Source: Agaricicola taiwanensis (GTDB lineage: Bacteria > Pseudomonadota > Alphaproteobacteria > Rhizobiales > Methylopilaceae). From it: 64,000 nt of DNA. The position numbers and the translations under genes are program-made. The stretch is taken from positions 558,001-622,000 of the forward strand of contig NZ_BMCP01000002.1 of the NCBI RefSeq assembly GCF_014635245.1, read 5' to 3'. Below are positions 4,822 through 33,997 of the stretch, piece after piece. Positions within the stretch are counted from its first letter, which is position 1. Each line of letters opens with the position of its first letter. Under the pieces are notes generated by a model. It worked only from the letters and a program-made list of their open reading frames with translations, searched no databases and was not told the origin of the DNA.

Positions 4822-5607
4822 TTACTCGCGATTTCCGAGAAGCGACAGCAGCATGGTGAAGAGGTTGATGAAGTTCAGGTAGAGCGACAGGGCGCCCATG
4901 ACCGCCTTGCGGCCTGCCACGGCAACGTCGTCACCGAAGAAATACATCTCCTTGATCCGCTGCGTGTCGTAGGCGGTGAGGCCTGCGAAGATCAGCACGC
5001 CGGCGACCGAGACCACGAACTGCAGCATGGACGAGCCGAGGAAGATGTTGACCACGCTGGCGATGATGATGCCGAAGAGGCCCATGATCAGGAAGCTGCC
5101 CATGGCCGTGAGGTCACGCTTCGTGGTGTAGCCATAGAGGCTGAGCGCACCAAAGGACGCGGCTGTGATGAAGAACACCCGGGCGATGGAGGCTCCCGTG
5201 TAGACCATGAAGATCGACGACAGCGACATTCCCATGAGAGCGGAGAAGATCCAGAACGTGGTCTGCGCCGCGCCCACGCTCATGGTGCCGATCCTGGCGG
5301 ACAGGAAGAAGACGAGGCCAAGAGGTGCCAGCATCACCAGCCATTTTAGGGGGCTGACGAACATGGCGTAGCCGAAGTTGGTCAGATACATGCCTTCGCG
5401 CACCTGCGCGGCCGCGCCTGCCGGGTCGCTGGTAACGGAAGCCATGAAGATGCCGATGGCGAACAGGCCGGTGATGGCCAGGCCAAAGGTCATGTAGTTG
5501 TAGACAGAGAGCATATAGGAGCGCAGGCCCTGATCGACCGCGCCCGCTTCAGCGCGCGCGACCCCAGCTCCATAGCGGGCCGTGGCGTTGCGATCAAAGT
5601 CGGACAT
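4822..5607 (-). CDS. Bax inhibitor-1/YccA family integral membrane protein
   Basis: The 261-residue protein has a short polar N-terminus followed by seven hydrophobic segments. It has the UPF0005/BI-1 hallmarks: TFGLAITG in TM1, the AYDTQRIKEMY motif near the C-terminus, and a final SLYLNFINLF segment. Bacterial members are inner-membrane proteins linked to FtsH (YccA) or to calcium leak; the role here is inferred from family only. ATG 5607 is preferred over a GTG three codons upstream because AAGGG lies at a suitable distance. It is a single gene with a shared terminator downstream. Confidence 0.92.
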   Translation of the reverse strand: MSDFDRNATARYGAGVARAEAGAVDQGLRSYMLSVYNYMTFGLAITGLFAIGIFMASVTSDPAGAAAQVREGMYLTNFGYAMFVSPLKWLVMLAPLGLVFFLSARIGTMSVGAAQTTFWIFSALMGMSLSSIFMVYTGASIARVFFITAASFGALSLYGYTTKRDLTAMGSFLIMGLFGIIIASVVNIFLGSSMLQFVVSVAGVLIFAGLTAYDTQRIKEMYFFGDDVAVAGRKAVMGALSLYLNFINLFTMLLSLLGNRE

Positions 5608-5777: not shown

Positions 5778-8345
5778 TCAAAGATTTCTAAGGTGCCGCG
5801 CCGGCGTTTCGCCAAGAATTCGCCAGGTGCCGACAAGGCCCAGAAAAACGGTCAGCAGCAGCGCCGCAAAAGCCGCAATGGCCGCGCCCGTAATGTCGGG
5901 GAAGAAGGCGAGATTCATGACCTGGGTGACCACAGCATAGGCCGCGACACTGCCAGCCAGGACGCCGAAGAGGGCTGTGGTGGCACCCAGCATGAGATAC
6001 TCCAGCGAAAAAGCGGCCAGCAGGCGCTTTCGCGTCGCGCCCAGCGTCTTGAGCACCACCGCGTCATAGACACGGTGCCGATGGCCGGCCGCCAATGCTC
6101 CTGCGAGCACAAGTATGCTGGAGACGAGCGTGACGCCACTGGCCGAGCGGATCGCAAGAGCGAGATCACCGACGAGCGCGTTCACGGTGTCCAGCGCCTC
6201 TTTCACCCGCACGGCAGTGACGTTGGGGAAGGCATCTGCGACGGCACGCAGAAGGCCGCGCTCCTGCTCCGCGCCGGCGCCATCAGGATAGGAGAGGGTG
6301 GCGAGGTATGTGTAGGGCGCGCCGCGGAAGGCGTTGGGCGAGAAGACCATGACAAAGTTGATGCCGAGCCGCTCCCACTGAATGTCCCGCAGGTTGGCGA
6401 TCCGAGCGGTGATGGTGCGGCCGAGCACATTGACCTGGACTTCGTCACCAATGGAAAGCTGCAGTTCCCGCGCTAGCTCCGCGCCAAAGGAGACTTGAGG
6501 CGGGCCGTCGTAATCGGCGGGCCACCAGCTTCCCTCGGTGACGGTGGAACCTTCCGGCGGTGCGGAGGAAAAGGTGATGCCCCGGTCTCCGCGTAGGACC
6601 CATTCCGATTCCGGCGTCGTCGGGTACTCCGCCGCGGCAATGCCCTTGAGGCTGACGACACGGCCGCGCAGCATCGGCACACGCTCGATCTGAGGATCGG
6701 CGCCGCGCTCCCGCAGAAAAGTCTCGAAGCGATCGCCGTCGGTGTTGGCCACATCGAGAAAGAAGAAGCTGGGAGCCATCTCCGGCAGGTTGCCGGTGAG
6801 CTGCCGGCGCAGCGAACCTTCGATCAGCACGACCGTGACCATGAGGGAGAGGCCGAGGCCCAGCGACAGCACAACCGAAGGCGTCAAGGCTCCAGGACGG
6901 TGGATGTTCGTCAGCGCCAGCCGCAGTTCGGTCTGGCGCGGGCGCGGCAGCTTGCGCGCCGCCCAGGTGATCAGGCTGGCGATGAGGCGGAGGCCGAGAA
7001 AAATCGCGGCAGCGGCACCGACAAAAAGGATGGCGATGTAGCGATCGTAGGCGGCCGCGATGGCGAGCGCGACCAAGGCCGTGAGCGCGAGGGCACCGGT
7101 CAGGCGATAGCGCAGGCGCGGCAAGCCCTTCACCCCGCCGATGCGTTCGCGGAAGAGGGCGGAGACGGCAACGTCGTGCGCGCGCCCGAGAGGCCAGAGG
7201 GCGAAGGCGAGGGCGGTCAGGAGGCCATATGATGCGCCAAGGGCGAGGTTAAGGCCGTCGACCGAGGGTGTGAACGGCACCGGGATCATGGCGCCGAGAC
7301 CCCAGGCAACCGCGAAGGGCATAGCCGCGCCCAATACCAGGCCGATCACGACGCCGACCAGCGCCAGCGCCATGATCTGCACGAGGTGGACGAGGACGAC
7401 GAAACCGCCGGATGCACCCAGGCATTTGAGGCTCGCAATGGTCTCGCGCTTCCGATCGACGAAGCCGCCGACGGCATTGACCACGCCCACACCGCCCACC
7501 ATCAGCGCTGTCAGCCCCACGAGCGTCAGAAACTGGGTGAAGCGTTCGATATTACGCTCCAGGCGCGGCGAGACATTCTGGCGGTCACGGATCCGCCAGC
7601 CCGCATCCGGAAAGGCAGAGGACACAGCCTCGCGCGTCGTCCGAATCGCGTCGTCCGACGCACCTTCCGGCAAGGCCAGACGGTAACTCCACTCGACGAG
7701 GCTGCCGGGCTGGATCAAGCCGCTTGCAGCAAGGCCCGCGTCGGACATCAGAATGCGAGGGCCGAAATCGATCCCGCCAGCAATGGCATCTGGTTCCTTT
7801 GCAAGTGTCGCCCGTACCTCGTATTCGGCGTTTCCGATGCGGATACGAGCGCCGGTTTCGATGCCGAGACGGTCGAGCAAGGCGGGCGCGGCCAGAACGC
7901 CGAAGCTGCCGTTTTGCTCGGACAAGGCATCCTCAATCGCAACCGGCGGATTTGTTTCCACGGCGCCGACCAGCGGATAGGCGCCATCGACGGCTTTGAG
8001 TTCCGAAAGCGTCGCCTCTCCGTTACCGCCACGCGCCATGGCGCGGATGGATGCGACCCGGGATACGGTCCCGCGGCTTTCCAAGAAGGCCCGCTGTTCG
8101 GGTGTTGCTTCCTGGTGGTTGAGTTCGAACTCCAGATCGCCGCCCAGAAGGACACGTCCTTCGGAGGCGAGGCCGTCGGTCATGCCGCGCGCGAGACCAC
8201 CGACGCCGGCGATGGCGGCGACACCCAACGCCAAGCAGGCAAGGAATACGCGAAAGCCCGAGACACCCGCGCGTAACTCCCGAAGAGCGAAACGGACCGC
8301 AAGTCCCAGGCCGGGCTTCTGGCAAGGCGGCGCGAAGGCGCTCAT
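5778..8345 (-). CDS. FtsX-type ABC transporter permease (YbbP-like)
   Basis: The 855-residue inner-membrane protein starts at ATG 8345, overlapping the stop of the ATPase gene by ATGA, so the two are translationally coupled. One TM segment near residues 30-50 is followed by a large periplasmic domain. Three TM helices (about 255-400) form a first FtsX core, more TM segments lie around 425-490, then a second periplasmic domain and a final FtsX block (SGVTLVSSILVLAGALAAG and later). This double-FtsX layout is that of YbbP, the partner of the YbbA-type ATPase. YbbAP next to tesA is a well-known arrangement across Proteobacteria. The transported substrate is not established. Confidence 0.9.
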   Translation of the reverse strand: MSAFAPPCQKPGLGLAVRFALRELRAGVSGFRVFLACLALGVAAIAGVGGLARGMTDGLASEGRVLLGGDLEFELNHQEATPEQRAFLESRGTVSRVASIRAMARGGNGEATLSELKAVDGAYPLVGAVETNPPVAIEDALSEQNGSFGVLAAPALLDRLGIETGARIRIGNAEYEVRATLAKEPDAIAGGIDFGPRILMSDAGLAASGLIQPGSLVEWSYRLALPEGASDDAIRTTREAVSSAFPDAGWRIRDRQNVSPRLERNIERFTQFLTLVGLTALMVGGVGVVNAVGGFVDRKRETIASLKCLGASGGFVVLVHLVQIMALALVGVVIGLVLGAAMPFAVAWGLGAMIPVPFTPSVDGLNLALGASYGLLTALAFALWPLGRAHDVAVSALFRERIGGVKGLPRLRYRLTGALALTALVALAIAAAYDRYIAILFVGAAAAIFLGLRLIASLITWAARKLPRPRQTELRLALTNIHRPGALTPSVVLSLGLGLSLMVTVVLIEGSLRRQLTGNLPEMAPSFFFLDVANTDGDRFETFLRERGADPQIERVPMLRGRVVSLKGIAAAEYPTTPESEWVLRGDRGITFSSAPPEGSTVTEGSWWPADYDGPPQVSFGAELARELQLSIGDEVQVNVLGRTITARIANLRDIQWERLGINFVMVFSPNAFRGAPYTYLATLSYPDGAGAEQERGLLRAVADAFPNVTAVRVKEALDTVNALVGDLALAIRSASGVTLVSSILVLAGALAAGHRHRVYDAVVLKTLGATRKRLLAAFSLEYLMLGATTALFGVLAGSVAAYAVVTQVMNLAFFPDITGAAIAAFAALLLTVFLGLVGTWRILGETPARHLRNL

Positions 8346-23827: not shown

Positions 23828-23847
23828 GTGATGACAGGACGTAATTG

Positions 23848-25158
23848 ATGGAAACCCGCGCCAATCACGCTCTCATCGGTCTCTTCACGCTTGCCGTCGT
23901 CCTTTGCGGGTTCGGCTTTGTGTGGTGGTTCGCCGGAGCGGCCGATTCCGGCCAGCGCAACGCCTATAACGTGATCTTTCAGGGGTCCGTCTCGGGTCTG
24001 ACGCGGGGTTCCGGCGTGCTGTTCAACGGCATCCGGGTGGGCGAGGTGGTGAGCCTCGCGCTCGATCCGCAGAATCCGCAGCGTGTGACGGCCCGCATCA
24101 CCACCGAGCCCACGACGCCTATTCGAACGGATACCAAGGCACGGCTTGAATATCAGGGCCTGACCGGTGTCGCGGCGATCCAGCTTGAAGGTGGCAAGAC
24201 GGATGCGCCGGTGCTGGCCACCAGCAGCAGCGAGCCGGGCGTCATCATCGCTGAACGTTCCGCCGTTCAGGACCTTCTGGAAGGCGCGCGCAAGGTCATG
24301 ACGCGCGCCGATGGCATCATGGCGACGGTGGAGGAATTCATCGTCGAGGCGCGCCAGCCGCTGACCAACTCGCTGAACAATGTGGAGCGCTTCACGACGG
24401 CCGTGGCCGGCAATTCCGACCAGATCGATCGCTTCCTGCGGGCGACCGGCGATGCCGCCACCCGCATCACGGAACTGGCAGGCCGGCTGGAAGGCCTGAC
24501 CGATGACCTGCGTAACATCGTGCAGGCGGTTAATCCGCAGGAAGTTGACGCCATCGTCGGCAACTTCCAGACCTTTTCCGATGGCCTTGCCAAGGCTGCG
24601 CCGCGCATCGATTCGATCTCCGCCGACGCCTCCGCCGTGACCCGTGACATCCGGGAAGTGACGGGCCGGCTGCAGAACACCTTCACTCATGTGGATCGTG
24701 TGATCGCGGCGGTCGATGCGGACCAGGTGCGCAGCACGGTCAACAGCTTCTCATCTTTTGCCCGCACGCTGGAATCCAACCGAGGCAATGTCGACGACAT
24801 CGTGGAGGACGCGCGTGAACTGACAGAGCGTCTCAACGAGGCCTCGAAAAGGCTCGACAGCATTCTGGAAGGTGCGGATTCACTCATCGGCAGCAATGGC
24901 CAGGGCGGCGGCTTCGGTGAGTTTACCGAGACGGCGAAGGCCATCCGGATCCTCGCCGAGAACCTCGATGAGCGCACGCAGCTCTTGTCGCGCGACATCT
25001 CCGGCTTCACCGGTCGCGGGCTGCGCCAGATTGATGCCTTCACCAGCCAGGGCACCCGGACGCTGACGGAAATTGAGCGTGTGCTGCGTTCGTTCGAGCG
25101 GAATCCGCGCCAGTTTCTCTTCGGCGGGTCCAGCATCCCCGAGTTTAGGGGCCGTTGA
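23848..25158 (+). CDS. mlaD: MCE-domain lipid-binding protein (MlaD family)
   Basis: The 436-residue protein has one N-terminal TM anchor (about 7-28), then an MCE domain (about 36-115) with FQGSVSGLTRGSGVLFNGIRVGEV and LEYQGLTGVAAIQLEGG. A long helical C-terminal region (about 150-400) of repeated amphipathic segments follows. That is much longer than E. coli MlaD (about 180 residues) and nearer to the extended MCE proteins that form tubes or needles across the periplasm. ATG 23848 is preceded by AGGA; a TTG three bases upstream is less likely. Third gene of the operon. Confidence 0.92.
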   Translation: METRANHALIGLFTLAVVLCGFGFVWWFAGAADSGQRNAYNVIFQGSVSGLTRGSGVLFNGIRVGEVVSLALDPQNPQRVTARITTEPTTPIRTDTKARLEYQGLTGVAAIQLEGGKTDAPVLATSSSEPGVIIAERSAVQDLLEGARKVMTRADGIMATVEEFIVEARQPLTNSLNNVERFTTAVAGNSDQIDRFLRATGDAATRITELAGRLEGLTDDLRNIVQAVNPQEVDAIVGNFQTFSDGLAKAAPRIDSISADASAVTRDIREVTGRLQNTFTHVDRVIAAVDADQVRSTVNSFSSFARTLESNRGNVDDIVEDARELTERLNEASKRLDSILEGADSLIGSNGQGGGFGEFTETAKAIRILAENLDERTQLLSRDISGFTGRGLRQIDAFTSQGTRTLTEIERVLRSFERNPRQFLFGGSSIPEFRGR

Positions 25159-25216
25159 GGACAACGATGATTTGCAATCGCGTATCAGTCAGTCAGACGA
25201 GCAGAAAGAGGGCATC

Positions 25217-25816
25217 GTGAGGGGTCGGGGAGCCGGAGTGAGAGTCGCGAGCGTGGCGCTGGCCGCATTTCTCCTTGGCGGATGCGCGCTGTTATCGACG
25301 CCTACGCCGCCCGACACATATACGCTGACCGCGCCGAGCTTCACCAAATCCTCGCGTGCACCCCGTGGCCTTCTCGTCATCGCCCAGCCGACGGCGATCT
25401 CCGCAATCGACAGTGAGCGCATCGTCGCGAGACCGGCGACAGGGGAGATCACCTATGTGCAGGAGTCGCAGTGGTCTGACGGACTGACCCGGCTGCTGCA
25501 GGCGCGGATCCTGGAATCCTTTGAGAATGCCAGTCGGCTGTCGGCGGTTGGCCGGGTTGGCGATCGCCTGAGCTCGGATTTTCAGCTGGCGACAGACGTG
25601 CGTTCCTTCGAAGTGGATGCGGGCAGCGGCATGGCTGTGGTTGAGATTTCCGCCAAGATCATCAATGAGCGGAATGGGCGTATCGCAGCCGGCAAGATCT
25701 TCCGTGGAACGGCACCTGTCGGAGCCATCAACGGCGCTGAAGCCTCACGCGCGCTGGACACGGCCCTTCACCAGGTGCTCCGCGATCTGGTTGAATGGAC
25801 CACCAGCCGGATCTGA
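25217..25816 (+). CDS. ABC-type transport auxiliary lipoprotein (PqiC/YmbA-like)
   Basis: The 199-residue precursor has a signal peptide and lipobox LLGGC (Cys near residue 24), so it is a lipoprotein, probably outer-membrane. The mature part has PDTYTLTAP near the start and SQWSDGLTRLLQARILESFENA, typical of the DUF330/ABC auxiliary lipoprotein family that works with MCE transporters. The start is GTG 25217 behind AAAGAGGG. Fourth and last gene of the operon, followed by a terminator. Confidence 0.9.
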   Translation: MRGRGAGVRVASVALAAFLLGGCALLSTPTPPDTYTLTAPSFTKSSRAPRGLLVIAQPTAISAIDSERIVARPATGEITYVQESQWSDGLTRLLQARILESFENASRLSAVGRVGDRLSSDFQLATDVRSFEVDAGSGMAVVEISAKIINERNGRIAAGKIFRGTAPVGAINGAEASRALDTALHQVLRDLVEWTTSRI

Positions 25817-25985: not shown

Positions 25986-28900
25986 TCAGTCGAACCTGCC
26001 GGCCGCATGGGCGAGCATGGTGTAGACCTTGCCCGTCTCGGACGTCAGGTAGCTCTGGCCGACCGAGGGGTCGCTGCCGTCGCGGGCAACCTCGTCGAGC
26101 AGGCGCTCGAATTCGCCGATGTAGCGTTCCACCGTGCGGCGGAATTCGCCGTCGGCCGCATATTTCTTGCGTACCTCGTCGAAGGTCTTCTGGCCCTGCA
26201 GCGTGTATAGGCGGCGGGTGAAGACATTGCGCTCGCCGCGGCGGTAGCGATCCCAGAGCTCCATCACCGCCTGATGATCAATCATGCGGGCGATGTCCAC
26301 CGACAGGCTGTCGAGCGACTCCAGTGCGAAGCGGACGTTTCGCTCGCCTGCCGGCTGCTTTGCCGGTGTGGGCGCCGGTGCCGGTGCCGGCGCGGCGTTG
26401 TTGTTGGCGAGCGGCTCGCGTGACGCGCGGGCAAGCAGGCCGGACAGCCAGCTGCCGTCCTCGTTGTCACTCTCGAAAGGTGACGGGCTGCGTGTCGGCA
26501 GCGGCTGAGGATTTGCCTCACGGGCGCGGTTCAGCGGAGCCGGTGCCGGAGTGGGGGCAGGTTGCTGTACGGCCGGCTTGGCACGCAGGTCTTCGGCAGC
26601 CTGCGAGGCCGACGCCACCGCTGCTGCATAGTCGACGCGGCGATTTTCCCCGACGTCATGCAGGCCGCCGTGGCGTGCCGCGATCTCCGTCAGCGCATTG
26701 AGTGCCTTCAGCTGATCAGACACGACGCGACGCATCGCGGCGGTGCTCTCCTCAGTCTCCTGCGGAAGAGCCATGATGCCCTTGCGGAGTTCGTCACGGG
26801 TCGTCTGCAACTCCGTCTGGATCGACGACGTCGTCATACGCATGTTCTTGGCGAGATCGCTGAAGCCGTCGTTGGCGCTGCGGAGCAGGGAGGTGACCTC
26901 ACCGATCGCCTGCTCATAGGTGCGGCGCAGAGCCTCTGTGGTCTTCTCACGCTCCTCGCCACTGGTGGCGCGGATCTTGTCGAAGCTTTCGGTGATAGCC
27001 CGCCCGGCTTCAGCGACTTCCTGGGCCATGCTTGAGGAGGCATTGCGGGCGCGGGTTTCGGCGCTCGACAGCGACTCGTCGATCAGGCGGACGAAGCCGC
27101 GCAGCAGGACATCGAGATCGTCGGTCTGAGAGGCGAGGCCGCTGGCAGTATCCTCCAGCGATTTCCTCCGGCTTTCCAGCGTGGATTCCAGACGCGCCTG
27201 GGATTCGTCGAGCGCGGTGCTCGCCTGACCGAGGGCGCGCCCCTGATCGTCGAGCCGGTCCGCGAGCTTGGAAACGTCCGCAAGCACCGAATTCGAGACC
27301 GTTTTGAGCGCAGCGATCTGTTCGCTGATCTGCGCGTTGGTGCGGTCACTGGTGCTGGCAACCGCCTCGACTGTGGCCTCCAGCGATTTGGTTCGTTCGC
27401 CGAGGCCAGCCTCGATAAGTACCAGGCTGTCACGGGCACGGGAGACGATGCCGGAGAGTTCGACGCTGGTGCGTCCAAGGCTTCCGAGCGTGTCGGAGAT
27501 GGAGCCCTTGAGATCCTCACCACTGGTCTTCAGATCGTCCACCAGCTTGCTGGTCTCGGCGCCGAAGGCCGTGGCCAGTTCTTCCGCAGCGTTGAGGAAG
27601 AGAGCGCGGGCTTCGCTGCCCCGGGCTGACAGAGCGTCGCCCAACCGGGTGCTGCTATCCTCGAAGGCGCGGATAACGGAGGCGCTGGTCTTCTGGAGGG
27701 TATCGCTCAGCTCTTCGCTGCGCTCGGTGATGCTGGTGATGAACTGGCCGCTGTTGTCATTGAGGACGCGTTCGATCTCCGCCGTCCGCTGGGTCAGCGT
27801 CGTGTTGATTTCACCGGTTCGGGCGGCCAGCGTCTCCAGCATACGGCCGCCGTTGTCATTCAGTACGCGTTCGATTTGAGCTGTCGTCTCGCCGAGAGCG
27901 GTGCCGATCTGTGCCGAACGTTCGGTGAGAAGTTCAACGAGACGGCCGCCGTTGTCATTGAGGACGCGCTCGATTTCCGCCGTGCGGTATCCAAGCGTCG
28001 AACCGATGTCGCCAGCGCGGGCGGTGAGGGTATCGACGACATCGCTGGAGAGCTTCTCCAGGGAGCGTTCGACTTCGCCGGCAGCGCCCTTGAGGGCGTC
28101 GGTGACATTCTGCACCTTGTCCGACAGGCGATCGGCGAGGGCCGTTCCCCGCGTCTCCAGATCGGCCGAGACGGTGTCGAGGCGGCCGACGACGACCATC
28201 TCGAAGCGTGCGGCACGACTGTCGAGACTTTCCGCGATCTCCATGGCCTTGGTGCCGAGGACGCGATTGACCTCCTCGGTCTTGCCGGCGAGCACATCGA
28301 TGACCTCGGTCGCCCGGCGGGTAACCTCATCGGCATAGTTCTGGGACTTGGCCGCCAGCGACTCGGTGATCATCTGCTCGCCGTCGTTGAGCGTGCGTGC
28401 GAGCTCGATGGTCCGCGTGGCCAGAACCTCGTTGAGGTTGTTGGCGCGGGCGTCCAGTCCGTCGTTCACTCGGGCCAGGCGGCCGTCCATGCTGTCGCCC
28501 ACGGAGCTGATCTTGTCGGTCAGCGAGCGCTCGAAATCCTCCAAGCGGTTCGACAGGGCCGACTCGATCTCGCGGGTGCGGTCGGTCAGGATGGTCTCCA
28601 GAGCGCGGGTGCGCTCGGCAACGGTGTCGCCGAGGGTGGCCGTGCGGGCCGCGAGCGATTCCATGATCGCGGCGCCGCGATTGCCCAGCACGTCTTCGGC
28701 GCGGCTGAAGTGATCCTCCAGGGTCGAGGAGAAGCCAACCATGTCGTGGCTGATGCGGTTGGCGAGCTCCATACCGCGTCCGCCGATGATGTGATCGAGC
28801 TCGCCGATCTTCATGGCAAGCAAGTCGTTCACCGAAGAGCCACGGGTGGTGATGCTCTCCGCGAGCTGCATGGTGCTCTCGACAATGGCGTCGTTGACCT

Positions 28901-31658
28901 TCGAGCTGCGCTCGGAAATGGACTCGATCAGGCCTTCGCCGCTGGCGTTGATCTCGCGGCTCATATCGCCGATACGCTCCATCAGCAGGCGCGAGGTGGT
29001 TTCCACCGCATCGGTGAGCGCGGACTCCGTGCGCTGCATTTCAGAGGTAACAGCACTGGACAGGCGCTCGGCGACGTTGTCGAAGCGGCCCTCGAGCGAA
29101 TAGGCCTCTTCCACGAGACGCGCGCTGGTGCGCTCGGCTGCGCCAACGAGGTGGGATTCCACTTCCTTGGAACGCGCGCCGAGAGTCTCGCCGATGCGTT
29201 CGATGGATTCCGCGAGCCGCTGTTCGGCAAGATCGGTCTCCTGCCGGATGAGGTCGGTCATGCGCGAGCCGCTGTCGCCGAGGCGTGCCTCGAGCTCGGA
29301 GCCGCGCACCACGATCGCGTCGTGAATGTCGGTTGCCGTGGAGCGCAGGTCACGGGCAAGAGCGCCGCCGTGCTCGACGATGGCTTCGCCCAGCCGCTCG
29401 CGGGCCTTGGCGAAGACGCTCTCGAAGGTGAGGCTGCGTTCATGGAGCGCGCGGTCGATCTCGAACGTGGCCGTTTCGAGCGAATTGCGGACGTCGGTCG
29501 TGCGCGTCGTAATGGTGTCGAGCACGCGGTTGGCCGCGAACTCGATGCTTTCCTCGATGCCACCGCCACGCACGACCACAGCCTCGTGGATGCGTTGGCT
29601 GGAGCCGTCGATGCGGTCGGCGATGGCCATGCCGCGGGTGTCGAGCAACTCGGCCACACGCTCGCCTGTCTCGCCAATGCGGCGATCGATCTCGACGCCG
29701 CGGATGGCGATGGTCTCGTAAATGCGATCGCCGGTGGCGGCGAGCCGCTCAGCGAGCTCTCCACCGCGCGTCGTGATGACTTCGGCAATGCGGCTGCCGG
29801 TGTCGTCGAGGCGGCTGGTGACCTCCGCGCCGCGCATGGAGAGGTCAACGACGAGGCTCTCACCGGTCGCCTTCAGTGTCTCGGTGACGGTGCCGGTGCG
29901 CTCCGTGATCATATCGGCAATGCGATGGGCGGTATCGCCCAAGGTGCCGGCAAGGGTCTCGCCTGTGCGTTCCAGCGTGTCGTTGGCTTCGATGGAGCGG
30001 GCGGCGATCGCTTCCGCGATGCGGGTGCCGGTGTCGGCCAGCGTATGCGTGACCTCGCGGGCCCGAAGCGTGAGGCTTTCGGTCAGGTCGGCGGAGGTGC
30101 GGGTGAGGGCGTCGGACACCGCGTTGGCACGCTCGTTGAGCGTATCGGTCACATCGGTGCTGGTTCGCGACAGCTGATCGGCGATGGCAATGGCGCGGTC
30201 GGCGAGAGCTTCCGTCAGATCCGCGCTGGTCTGGGCCAGAGCCTCGGTGATCATCTGCGCGCGGCCGGTGAGGCCTTCGGTGACGTCCGTGCTGGTGCGA
30301 TTAAGGGCGTCCGTGATCGCCGTGGCGCGCTCCGACAGCGTATAGGTGGTGGTCTCGCTGGCGCGGGTTAGCTCCTCGCTGATGGCATGCGCGCGCATGG
30401 CCATGGTCTCGCTGAGGCGCGCGCTGCTGTCTGCGAGCGTATCGGTAATCGTCTGGGCGCGGTCCTCGAAGGAGCGTATCATGCCCGAACTGGTTTCAGT
30501 CAGGGTCTCGGTGATGCTGCGGGCACGATCTTCGAGTGACTGGGTGAGGTCGCGGCTGGAATTGACGAAGGTCTCGTGGAAGGCGGAGGCCTTTTCTTCG
30601 AGGTTGACGGTTACCTCGGTGCTGACGCGGGTCAAGGTGCCGTTGACGTCGTTGCCGGTGCTGGAAAGACGGTCGATGATCTCGTGCGCCTGCGTGGTGA
30701 CCGACTGGATCAGGTTTTCGCCGGCCGAGCCGACAGCCTCGGTGATCTGGATGCTCCTCTCGCCGAGGTTCTGCGTGGCGCGGTTACCGGCTTCGGTGAT
30801 GCTGGTGGTGAGATATTCGGTGGCGTTGGCGAGTTCGCGAGCAAGGTCGCTGTGCGTGGCGGTCAGCGTATGGCGCAGCTGTTCAGCATTGGCGACAAGG
30901 CCTTCGCGCTGATTGCGCAGTTCCTCGACGATGGAGCGCACGCGCACTTCATTGTCCTGGAACGAGCGTTCAAGAGCGGTGATCTCGCCCCGGACCATGG
31001 CCTCAAGTTCAGTGGCGCGGCTAAAGGCGCGTTCGATACCATCATCGATGGCGGAAACTTCACGGCGCACGGCCTGCCCGATAGACAGAACGCCATCTCG
31101 GGCGGTGGACTCAGGCTCGGCCAGACGAAGGGCGACTTCCGTCATGGAGCGGGAGACGAGCCACATCTCATTCGCACGGCGCGTCAACGCGGCCAGCATG
31201 AAGAAGATGAAGATCGGCGCGACGATGCCAAGGGTCACCGCGGCCAGCGGGGCGAGGGCCGCCGGATCGGAGAGGGCACCTGGAGCAATTGGGAGCAGAC
31301 CGGCGCTGAAGGCATAGGCGACGCCGAGGGCGGCCCAGCCAAGCGATGCGAGGGTAGCAAGGACGTAAGGGGTGCGCGACGGGCGCTTCTGCAATGCATA
31401 GGCGATATGCGCGAAGGAGCGGGTGTCGTCATTGGCAGGCAAGGGCCCTGCGGTTTCGATGCGTGGCTGCGGGCGAGGCGCCTGAGGCGCGCGAGCGAAG
31501 GGCGCGGACTGGTTTGGCTCCCTGAACACTTCCTCGTCCTTCACCGGACGATTTTCCTGAACCTCGGCCTCCTGCTCGCCGACGAGGTTCAACGCTTCCT
31601 CGATGGCGGAGAGAGCTGCCTCGGCCGGGTCCTTCATCTTACGTGGATTATTAGCCAT
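25986..31658 (-). CDS. Growth pole ring (GPR/RgsE)-like giant coiled-coil membrane protein
   Basis: The 1890-residue protein has a short polar N-terminus, two TM segments close together (about residues 95-150, with TLASLGWAALGVAYAFSAGL and then VTLGIVAPIFIFFMLAAL), and about 1400 residues of amphipathic helical repeats. It ends in a disordered Pro/Ala stretch and a compact C-terminal domain with LWDRYRRGERNVFTRRLYTLQGQ. Many repeats are 22 residues long (TSADLTEAL-type, later TGxRIAE-type). A C-terminal set repeats every 33 residues (IERVLNDNGG three times, about 27750-27980). Apolipoprotein-like repeats, N-terminal TM and about 2000 residues match Agrobacterium GPR and Sinorhizobium RgsE, which organise the polar growth zone. 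ATG 31658 has GAGGCG upstream; an in-frame ATG at 31691 would add 11 residues. Confidence 0.85.
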   Translation of the reverse strand: MANNPRKMKDPAEAALSAIEEALNLVGEQEAEVQENRPVKDEEVFREPNQSAPFARAPQAPRPQPRIETAGPLPANDDTRSFAHIAYALQKRPSRTPYVLATLASLGWAALGVAYAFSAGLLPIAPGALSDPAALAPLAAVTLGIVAPIFIFFMLAALTRRANEMWLVSRSMTEVALRLAEPESTARDGVLSIGQAVRREVSAIDDGIERAFSRATELEAMVRGEITALERSFQDNEVRVRSIVEELRNQREGLVANAEQLRHTLTATHSDLARELANATEYLTTSITEAGNRATQNLGERSIQITEAVGSAGENLIQSVTTQAHEIIDRLSSTGNDVNGTLTRVSTEVTVNLEEKASAFHETFVNSSRDLTQSLEDRARSITETLTETSSGMIRSFEDRAQTITDTLADSSARLSETMAMRAHAISEELTRASETTTYTLSERATAITDALNRTSTDVTEGLTGRAQMITEALAQTSADLTEALADRAIAIADQLSRTSTDVTDTLNERANAVSDALTRTSADLTESLTLRAREVTHTLADTGTRIAEAIAARSIEANDTLERTGETLAGTLGDTAHRIADMITERTGTVTETLKATGESLVVDLSMRGAEVTSRLDDTGSRIAEVITTRGGELAERLAATGDRIYETIAIRGVEIDRRIGETGERVAELLDTRGMAIADRIDGSSQRIHEAVVVRGGGIEESIEFAANRVLDTITTRTTDVRNSLETATFEIDRALHERSLTFESVFAKARERLGEAIVEHGGALARDLRSTATDIHDAIVVRGSELEARLGDSGSRMTDLIRQETDLAEQRLAESIERIGETLGARSKEVESHLVGAAERTSARLVEEAYSLEGRFDNVAERLSSAVTSEMQRTESALTDAVETTSRLLMERIGDMSREINASGEGLIESISERSSKVNDAIVESTMQLAESITTRGSSVNDLLAMKIGELDHIIGGRGMELANRISHDMVGFSSTLEDHFSRAEDVLGNRGAAIMESLAARTATLGDTVAERTRALETILTDRTREIESALSNRLEDFERSLTDKISSVGDSMDGRLARVNDGLDARANNLNEVLATRTIELARTLNDGEQMITESLAAKSQNYADEVTRRATEVIDVLAGKTEEVNRVLGTKAMEIAESLDSRAARFEMVVVGRLDTVSADLETRGTALADRLSDKVQNVTDALKGAAGEVERSLEKLSSDVVDTLTARAGDIGSTLGYRTAEIERVLNDNGGRLVELLTERSAQIGTALGETTAQIERVLNDNGGRMLETLAARTGEINTTLTQRTAEIERVLNDNSGQFITSITERSEELSDTLQKTSASVIRAFEDSSTRLGDALSARGSEARALFLNAAEELATAFGAETSKLVDDLKTSGEDLKGSISDTLGSLGRTSVELSGIVSRARDSLVLIEAGLGERTKSLEATVEAVASTSDRTNAQISEQIAALKTVSNSVLADVSKLADRLDDQGRALGQASTALDESQARLESTLESRRKSLEDTASGLASQTDDLDVLLRGFVRLIDESLSSAETRARNASSSMAQEVAEAGRAITESFDKIRATSGEEREKTTEALRRTYEQAIGEVTSLLRSANDGFSDLAKNMRMTTSSIQTELQTTRDELRKGIMALPQETEESTAAMRRVVSDQLKALNALTEIAARHGGLHDVGENRRVDYAAAVASASQAAEDLRAKPAVQQPAPTPAPAPLNRAREANPQPLPTRSPSPFESDNEDGSWLSGLLARASREPLANNNAAPAPAPAPTPAKQPAGERNVRFALESLDSLSVDIARMIDHQAVMELWDRYRRGERNVFTRRLYTLQGQKTFDEVRKKYAADGEFRRTVERYIGEFERLLDEVARDGSDPSVGQSYLTSETGKVYTMLAHAAGRFD

Positions 31659-32077
31659 GTCTTTCGCCTCGCGCCCGTACTCAAAACTCATCGGCGGTCA
31701 AACTTCATCACAATGAAGCGTCCCGCCGTCGAACACGCGCCGACCCCAAATCATCAGGACGTATGAAGGTCATGGACATGTCCCCTCCCGCCTTTCCCCA
31801 CCGGTGCAAACACGCCGGCTTTGGGGCATTCTTCGCCGCGGGGGCGATCCTAAACGGGCCAGAGGCGAAAGAAAACACGTCGGCTGTGGAAATCGCAAGT
31901 TTCGTTAACGTCTTTTTTACCATAAATTTCAACGACTTTTAATTTCCACGCTTGAAATGTGAATTTGAGGGGCGCGACGAGATCCTGCGCCACCGCAAAA
32001 AATATTTTGCTAAAGGGAATAGTTTCCTGAGAGTTAAGGGCGGCGGCTGCCGTGAATAGCGCCTCGGGACGTGCCGA
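31659..32077. other. Intergenic region upstream of the giant coiled-coil gene
   Basis: A 419-base gap between the start of the GPR-like gene and the stop of the ferredoxin reductase gene, both on the minus strand. The part from 31890 to 32050 is clearly more AT-rich than its surroundings and should hold the GPR-like promoter. It contains a CtrA-like site (31905-31919) and a small palindrome, GCAAAA-AATA-TTTTGC (31995-32010). I see no convincing gene; a 74-codon minus-strand frame (31708-31932) has no family resemblance. Confidence 0.6.
31905..31919 (-). promoter_or_regulatory. Possible CtrA-binding site (one mismatch)
   Basis: TTAA-N7-TTTA, one base off the CtrA consensus TTAA-N7-TTAA, lies about 250 bases upstream of the GPR-like start codon. 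A single near-match in AT-rich DNA is weak evidence, but control of a polar-growth gene by CtrA would make sense. Confidence 0.3.
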
Positions 32078-33522
<1,445 letters not shown>

Positions 33523-33545
33523 GACGTCCCGGCTCATTCAAAGCA

Positions 33546-33631: not shown

Positions 33632-33997
33632 TCAGGCCGCGAGAAGCGTGTCGATTTCCTGCGTGGCTTCGGCCACGGTCTCGGCGACGGCTTCGAGGGC
33701 GCTGCCGGTGTTGCCAACACCCTTTGCCGCGCGTTCCAGTTCCTCGGCAGCGGCGGCAACGCGCCATGCACCCACGCCGCGGGCGGACCCGACGAGAGCA
33801 TGCGCAATTTCAGCGCGCCCGGTGGGGTCGGTCGTTCCCTCCAAGCGGATCATGAAGAGGCGGGTCTGCCGACGGAAGATGGCGAGCACTTCGCGCTCCA
33901 CCGCGCGATCGCCCGCAGTCTGGCGGGAGAGGTGGACGAGATCGATCGGGCGGGTGGGGATGGCGGCTGTTGCCTGATCGCTGGCTGACACTAACAT
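33632..33997 (-). CDS. Hpt-domain phosphotransfer protein, orphan
   Basis: The 121-residue all-helical protein has the Hpt core AHALVGSARGVGAWRVAAAAEELERAA, with the phospho-accepting His near residue 66. The family usually reads HxLKG; here the Lys position is Val, although the His and Gly are kept. No histidine kinase or response regulator is adjacent. It may relay phosphate between proteins encoded elsewhere. Divergent from sixA, whose family removes phosphate from Hpt domains, which makes the pairing suggestive. Confidence 0.8.
   Translation of the reverse strand: MLVSASDQATAAIPTRPIDLVHLSRQTAGDRAVEREVLAIFRRQTRLFMIRLEGTTDPTGRAEIAHALVGSARGVGAWRVAAAAEELERAAKGVGNTGSALEAVAETVAEATQEIDTLLAA

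Follow-up and report, generated by a model that had tools for sequence, protein, structure and literature searches.

The window, a 64,000-nucleotide stretch of Agaricicola taiwanensis DNA, contains on its minus strand (31658..25986) a gene for 1890 residues plus stop that, on the basis of sequence comparison, is this organism's GPR/RgsE ortholog. The protein is a fresh member of an already known family, in which the strict hendecad frame and the quantized evolution described here appear to be new; in a literature search confined mostly to papers free of subscription, hendecads were not linked to the growth pole ring, RgsE, or TipN. With a probability of about 0.7, the gene encodes a cytoplasmic growth-pole scaffold that is anchored in the membrane and contains a hendecad coiled-coil rod. 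We infer the oligomeric state, the geometry of the rod, the polar location, and the role in this species, the rod itself from the sequence together with an AF2 monomer model of the first 330 residues (24 sequences). A scaffolding role in envelope growth has been proposed for GPR in the Rhizobiales, an order mostly without MreB (PMC8262873), and published work on relatives describes six foci arranged in a ring at the growth pole and cells that become round upon depletion. The features of the gene and its upstream neighbors are as follows.

25986..31658, minus strand: gpr/rgsE ortholog, start placed by the conserved ortholog N terminus; the ORF could reach 31691
31587..31631, minus strand: conserved N-terminal helix, residues ~10-24, DPAEAALSAIEEALN, from the ortholog alignment; AF2 helix 11-35
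31308..31364, minus strand: first transmembrane helix (predicted), residues ~99-117, from hydropathy; AF2 helix 96-118
31185..31241, minus strand: second transmembrane helix (predicted), residues ~140-158, from hydropathy; AF2 helix 132-180
27468..30899, minus strand: unbroken hendecad array, residues 254-1397, 104 x 11, from autocorrelation, cyclic profile, and period 3.665
29109..30899, minus strand: part of the array with strongest 22-residue identity, residues ~254-850
27468..28325, minus strand: part of the array with strongest 33-residue identity, residues ~1112-1397
27678..27974, minus strand: three 33-residue units starting IERVLND, at residues 1229, 1262, and 1295
26766..27467, minus strand: helical region past the array, mixed periodicity, residues 1398-1631 (peak 3.60 over ~1410-1709, phase drift)
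26352..26576, minus strand: proline-rich linker, residues ~1695-1769, from proline positions
25989..26345, minus strand: conserved C-terminal helical domain, residues ~1772-1890, from profile matches and AF2 helices
32078-33109, same strand as gpr, upstream: FAD/NAD(P) reductase gene
33202..33537, minus strand: 2Fe-2S ferredoxin gene (PF00111, 48.5 bits)
33632..33997, minus strand: Hpt-domain gene (PF01627, 27.9 bits; cut-off 24.6)

The 1890-residue reading frame that the initial annotation had placed at 25986-31658 lies on the minus strand, which is open for 1901 codons (31691..25986), whereas the plus-strand translation is broken by stops. The start was set at 31658, with an extension to 31691 possible, because the conserved N terminus of the orthologs (consensus of 24, MAxxPKKxKDPTEAALSAIEEAL) begins there. 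An 831-residue ORF antisense to the array (27876-30371, plus strand) is probably a shadow of repetitive, stop-poor sequence and not a gene.

The N-terminal part of the protein is identical to S. meliloti RgsE at 107 of 226 positions (score 385, against at most 65 in 100 shuffles) and the C-terminal part at 133 of 255 positions (score 574, against at most 69 in 100 shuffles). A lack of similarity in the transmembrane and C-terminal regions had been named in advance as an observation that would overturn the GPR/RgsE assignment; the similarity found in both, the PF01442 match, and synteny uphold it. The apolipoprotein A1/A4/E family PF01442, the repeat match expected of GPR/RgsE, is reached with 203.5 bits (cut-off 90) over eight stretches. 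Four 19-residue hydropathy windows lie above threshold, the outermost at 99-117 and 140-158 (1890-aa numbering), and with the AF2 helices at 96-118 and 132-180 they agree with the two N-terminal transmembrane helices, ahead of the bulk of the protein, that had been predicted initially. The NCBIfam models for ZorA (Zorya) were not reached (43.7 of 700 and 41.8 of 190 bits); their best stretches lie inside the repeat array, and the weak match perhaps stems from long helical repeats common to both proteins. The RgsE sequence used for comparison was taken from S. meliloti record CP090106.1, where a protein of 2,089 aa, the published length of RgsE (PMC7327166), has the product name 'kinesin'. A motor protein, as that database name would suggest, is extremely improbable, no motor domain being present among the Pfam and NCBIfam matches of the window protein. 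The same record (L071) is titled pSymB and looks like a mislabelled chromosome because it is 3.7 Mb long and bears rgsE, petA, and fol genes; records of 3.5-4.6 Mb from Sinorhizobium and Shinella may likewise be mislabelled chromosomes.

The gene is convergent with MlaD-type ABC transporter genes (MlaD, 23845-25158; ABC_trans_aux, 25073-25816). Beyond the Hpt gene, the plus strand carries a histidine-phosphatase-like gene (Pfam 19.8 bits, slightly under the cut-off of 21.7), followed by YcjX-like (DUF463) and DUF697 genes. The 2Fe-2S protein and Hpt that characterize the GPR/RgsE neighborhood are both found here and beside S. meliloti rgsE. Among 41 loci of the order, ferredoxin is a neighbor at at least 40, Hpt at at least 32 (and at at least 9 of 21 loci outside the order), and YcjX at at least 23, these counts being lower bounds because the loci were cut at different distances. 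The recurring Hpt neighbor makes a functional link of GPR-like genes to a phosphorelay possible. Hpt sequences beside GPR-like genes lie at 33632-33997 (minus strand) in the window, at 5102-5470 in the S. meliloti record, and at 6637-6930 in a Sphingomonas record (L072), the last scoring 16.6 bits, under the Pfam cut-off of 24.6.

Identity autocorrelation of the protein has peaks at lags 11, 22, 33, 44, 55, 66, and 77 (z of 8-15 relative to shuffles), so that the periodicity check proposed with the initial annotation gave a result far beyond chance. Hydrophobicity has a period of 3.67 (11/3) over residues 201-1720 of the 1901-codon frame, and its local phase is nearly constant from residue ~242 to 1342 and drifts past the array. 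A cyclic 11-state profile, trained on these orthologs with the window protein included, finds a single run from residue 254 to 1397, 1144 residues or 104 hendecads with zero register breaks, and no run in any of 20 shuffled copies; the autocorrelation, the hydrophobic period, and the span and gap counts given below are all independent of this profile. Along the seam of the array, all 104 hendecads have a hydrophobic residue at position a and 95 have one at position h, and position e is Gly, Ala, Ser, or Thr in 88. Two hydrophobic positions and a small one in the core, at a period of 3.665, make up the register of a hendecad coiled coil. The strongest identity lag is 22 at residues ~254-850, where the 22-residue repeats described initially are thus found, no lag is clear at ~850-1110, and 33 prevails at ~1112-1397. 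Since the 1144 residues keep a single 11-residue register, the 22- and 33-residue repeats are superimposed on an 11-residue frame. The 33-residue repeats had been called exact, which they are not: 19, 16, and 14 of 33 residues and 62, 59, and 54 of 99 nucleotides are identical between units. Of the three copies of IERVLNDNGG claimed for them, two are present and the third reads IERVLNDNSG. Tandem Repeats Finder reports just one array, of 6 bp, at 26361-26390, and for that reason the protein repeats look old. A 33-residue zone closing the longest run was rejected as a general feature: of 25 proteins, six, among them the window protein, have a 33-residue lag stronger than the 22-residue lag there. 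Across the order the hydrophobic period is 3.655-3.670 in 38 of 41 proteins, and unbroken runs of 126, 137, and 150 hendecads occur beside the 104 found here. Several proteins of the same family are split into eight or more runs, and an unbroken rod appears dispensable in some species because register breaks are common elsewhere (10 runs in RgsE).

Apolipoproteins are built from 22-residue helices with proline punctuation, and apolipoprotein A-IV has 11- and 22-residue periodicity. The Zambryski group proposed an apolipoprotein-like lipid role for GPR, and amphipathic repeats of 11, 22, and 33 residues could accordingly lie on membrane lipid and organize the polar membrane. The PF01442 match, apoA-IV as the sole sequence match in the PDB (E values 1.3e-8 and 5.2e-9), and published deletions of the A-IV-like regions of GPR that disturb shape and localization (PMC8262873) favor such a role, but the seam is narrow, strongly hydrophobic at just 2 of 11 positions with a third that is small, the array has no proline in 1144 residues where the aligned 162-residue stretch of apoA-IV has six, and lipid binding has no obvious need for 104 units in a single register. 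No Pro, Cys, or Trp occurs within residues 254-1397, and the proline-free stretch of the protein extends to 1,450 residues. We therefore regard a lipid-organizing role as very unlikely; the repeats called apolipoprotein-like initially match PF01442 and have 22-residue periodicity, but their seam is narrow and they contain no proline punctuation. A hendecad coiled-coil rod accounts for the array better than an apolipoprotein punctuated by prolines does. In PMC8262873, GPR was modeled as an apolipoprotein, and PCOILS, which is presumably tuned to heptads, gave two predicted coiled coils of 21 residues each in the A-IV-like domains studied.

The length of the rod evolves through in-register gain and loss of whole hendecads. 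Array spans, taken from an anchor past the transmembrane helices to an anchor beyond the array, could be placed gap-free in 117 of 137 non-redundant proteins, and the length of the adjoining proline-rich linker served as the control in 114. Taken modulo 11, all 117 spans together are strongly non-uniform (p = 1e-18), whereas the linkers are not (p = 0.99). The Bosea-type set comprises 22 proteins, 19 of them titled Bosea, one Boseaceae, and two otherwise titled with the same N terminus; three further entries titled Bosea (L178, L183, and L187) were excluded as being cut, absent from the expected strand, or of another type. Twenty of the 22 spans fall in one class modulo 11; they take 15 distinct lengths between 1466 and 1785 residues, and 13 of these lengths share one class (p = 2e-19 versus uniform), and the linkers of this set, with 16 distinct lengths, are spread evenly (p = 0.82). 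The 12 Microvirga genes occupy classes 2 (nine genes) and 9 (three genes) exclusively. In a set of 19 from Xanthobacteraceae, Pseudolabrys, Rhodoplanes, and similar taxa, 11 are in class 10 and four in class 6 (p = 3e-7 over distinct lengths), and in the Methylopilaceae (n = 15) the effect is weak (p = 0.04). The minor class is offset from the main class by 7 modulo 11 in both Bosea and Microvirga.

Close pairs of genes bear this out. Among 41 pairs of 0.88 DNA identity or above, the only pairs used, drawn from 80 usable genes of 90, 52 of 58 gap lengths are divisible by 33 nt, although the 58 gaps represent fewer independent events because pairs share genes. The sizes are 66 nt (21 gaps), 132 nt (18), 264 nt (7), 99 nt (4), and 198 nt (2); the exceptions are 12 nt (5) and 87 nt (1), that is, 4 residues (11 - 7) and 29 residues (22 + 7), which would roughly keep the seam. 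Among 17 hand-picked pairs, some of them much less alike, the 33-nt step fits 22 of 37 gaps. The 22- and 33-residue units are real event sizes because close-pair gaps fall at those sizes, and the quantum is 11 because spans differ by odd as well as even numbers of units. The expansion by 11-residue units suggested at the outset is thus strongly supported by the spans and the close-pair gaps, and repeat slippage by itself would likewise favor multiples of 11.

In the proposed arrangement, two predicted transmembrane helices would anchor the N terminus in the inner membrane, and from residue ~187 a long helix would run into the 104 hendecads of single register; the placement of the bulk in the cytoplasm follows the literature. 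The AF2 model has a transmembrane hairpin followed by an unbroken helix at 187-329, with pLDDT of 85-97 from residue 211 and 50-81 before it. Large hydrophobic residues at a and h and the small residue at e would allow two or more chains to pair as an almost straight rod, ~172 nm long if fully extended (0.15 nm per residue); packing may be loose because e holds Gly, Ser, and Thr besides Ala. Packing rules for hendecads, including a small core residue in dimers, have been described (PMC9858780), and the core spacing here, a-e-h (4-3-4), is near to the a-d-h scheme given there but not identical. The far end of the rod would bear the proline-rich linker and the conserved helical domain, which may recruit partners.

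Polar growth in this organism, which the initial annotation took to be implied, is suggested by homology together with the lack of MreB, MreC, and PBP2. MreB is absent from the genome that contains the window: three proteins exceed Pfam's low cut-off for PF06723 (best, 59 bits), but at 25-54 bits they fall far under the cut-off of the MreB model, and they were identified instead as DnaK (1074.5 bits), FtsA (349.1 bits), and, with 285.2 bits against a model cut-off of 331, a DnaK-like chaperone. True MreB, at 379-485 bits, is present in 9 of 60 relatives. The same genome gave no match to MreC and none over the cut-off for PBP2 (best, 125.6 versus 455 bits). A GPR-like protein alone does not prove polar growth because its C-terminal domain is class-wide and is also present in all 48 MreB-bearing genomes among 397 of the order (MreB at E 1e-40 or better). 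This last count differs from the statement in PMC7327166 that the four MreB-bearing Rhizobiales considered there have no Rgs homologs.

The length of the GPR frame differs with MreB status. Frames of at least 1500 aa were found in 1 of 44 MreB-bearing and 171 of 214 MreB-lacking genomes sampled from the order (medians, 1,060 and 1,920 residues) after frames under 500 aa were dropped (4 and 14, respectively); the MreB-lacking rows, 228 of 349, comprise the 148 best-scoring C termini among the matches listed and 80 further genomes. By family medians the association has p = 0.023. On a tree of 62 proteins of the order and five outgroup proteins, MreB changes at least six times, and well-supported branches give three independent pairs, of which one combines MreB with a short array, the predicted direction, none is opposite, and two have no difference. 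The link between a short array and MreB is not separable from common descent because three independent comparisons are too few. Counterexamples go both ways, some MreB-less families having short GPR-like proteins and one genome (G386) having a divergent MreB (268 bits) together with a 2,010-residue GPR frame, and for MreB loss as the driver of array expansion no claim beyond descent is made.

The C-terminal 118 residues are matched in 59 of 61 relatives, and a profile of this domain finds 389 of 397 genomes of the order and 114 of 289 genomes of the class, four of those 114 being from the order. AF2 models the domain as helices (mean pLDDT, 66.2), for which the best VIA-align hits (Z up to 6.1) are unrelated helical proteins. 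Five genomes of genus g62 (G082, G139, G202, G286, and G378), 93-100% complete, gave no match to the domain, nor did three others of the 397; the growth mode of the g62 genomes would be informative. Six genomes (G239, G300, G311, G322, G333, and G344) have a second site for the domain, with frames of 434-476 residues (966 with a partial match in G311), possibly a short paralogue in one family.

Among 20 proteins of the class from outside the order, two have weak hendecad runs and the other 18 none. Their hydrophobic period is 3.545-3.625, and when lags of 3 to 100 were compared, 25 or one of its multiples was strongest in 10 of the 20 (25 = 7 + 7 + 11; 25/7 = 3.571). The C-terminal domain family is thus class-wide, with strict hendecads seen in the order. 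Strong 25-residue repeats, with best z of 10-19, are present in three outside-order proteins (L081, L085, and L088) and are a different repeat solution within the same domain family. In Sphingomonas parapaucimobilis (L072, 7033-9357), a 774-residue protein carries the GPR C-terminal domain without a hendecad run and has hydrophobic segments at ~60-91 and 93-117; the 880-kb record is labelled plasmid. PLSDB queried with outside-order C termini returned the same six records and nothing further.

This distribution bears on whether the protein is a polarity landmark more than a growth scaffold: it may belong to a class-wide family, perhaps together with Caulobacter TipN, and as this order's representative mark the new pole while others organize growth. 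The presence of the domain in 114 of 289 class genomes and in every MreB-bearing genome of the order, at least two hydrophobic windows near the N terminus in 17 of the 20 outside-order proteins, and the printed statement that GPR resembles TipN (PMC8546619) are consistent with a landmark. Agrobacterium cells depleted of GPR, however, become round, and cells that have lost RgsE grow more slowly and are misshapen (PMC8262873, PMC7327166); we consider a role mainly as landmark unlikely. For the growth scaffold, a reading of the whole family may tentatively be offered, at a little under even odds: GPR/RgsE proteins would be giant membrane-anchored hendecad rods of up to 150 units, their length drifting by 11s with the register kept, which act as straight, species-specific spacers from the polar membrane to a C-terminal hub, convergent with Scy, and which arose in the Hyphomicrobiales when a class-wide ancestor with 25-residue (7 + 7 + 11) repeats was rebuilt into pure hendecads. 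If a continuous hendecad rod is correct, its geometry is predictable, nearly straight at ~0.15 nm per residue, and old deletions can be reread, those of 20 or 21 residues shifting the register and those of 22 not. Rod length could also be altered in steps of 11 residues, with the ring and the growth zone as the readout.

Among known systems, GPR of A. tumefaciens (Atu1348) and RgsE of S. meliloti (SMc00190) likewise have two N-terminal transmembrane helices, a giant helical repeat region, apolipoprotein-type matches, a conserved C-terminal domain, and order-wide orthology, direct alignment having been made with S. meliloti RgsE alone. The window protein is shorter (1890 aa versus published lengths of 2,115 for GPR and 2,089 for RgsE), and its hendecads form one unbroken array of 104 as compared with 10 runs, the longest of 51, in S. 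meliloti RgsE. Apolipoprotein A-IV (PF01442) gives a weak sequence match and shares the 11- and 22-residue periodicity but differs in its six prolines per 162 residues. Scy and FilP of Streptomyces serve polar growth. Like the window protein they are long hendecad coiled-coil proteins, likened to it by function and not by homology; they are described as having a DivIVA-like N terminus, and the Pfam scan of the window protein returned none. TipN of Caulobacter crescentus, with a printed length of 882 aa versus 1890 aa here, has been called similar or analogous to GPR (PMC8546619, PMC13170164), a likeness by description alone. A published parallel to the array itself is Streptomyces Scy, with a rod of more than 1000 residues made nearly entirely of hendecads (PMC9858780).
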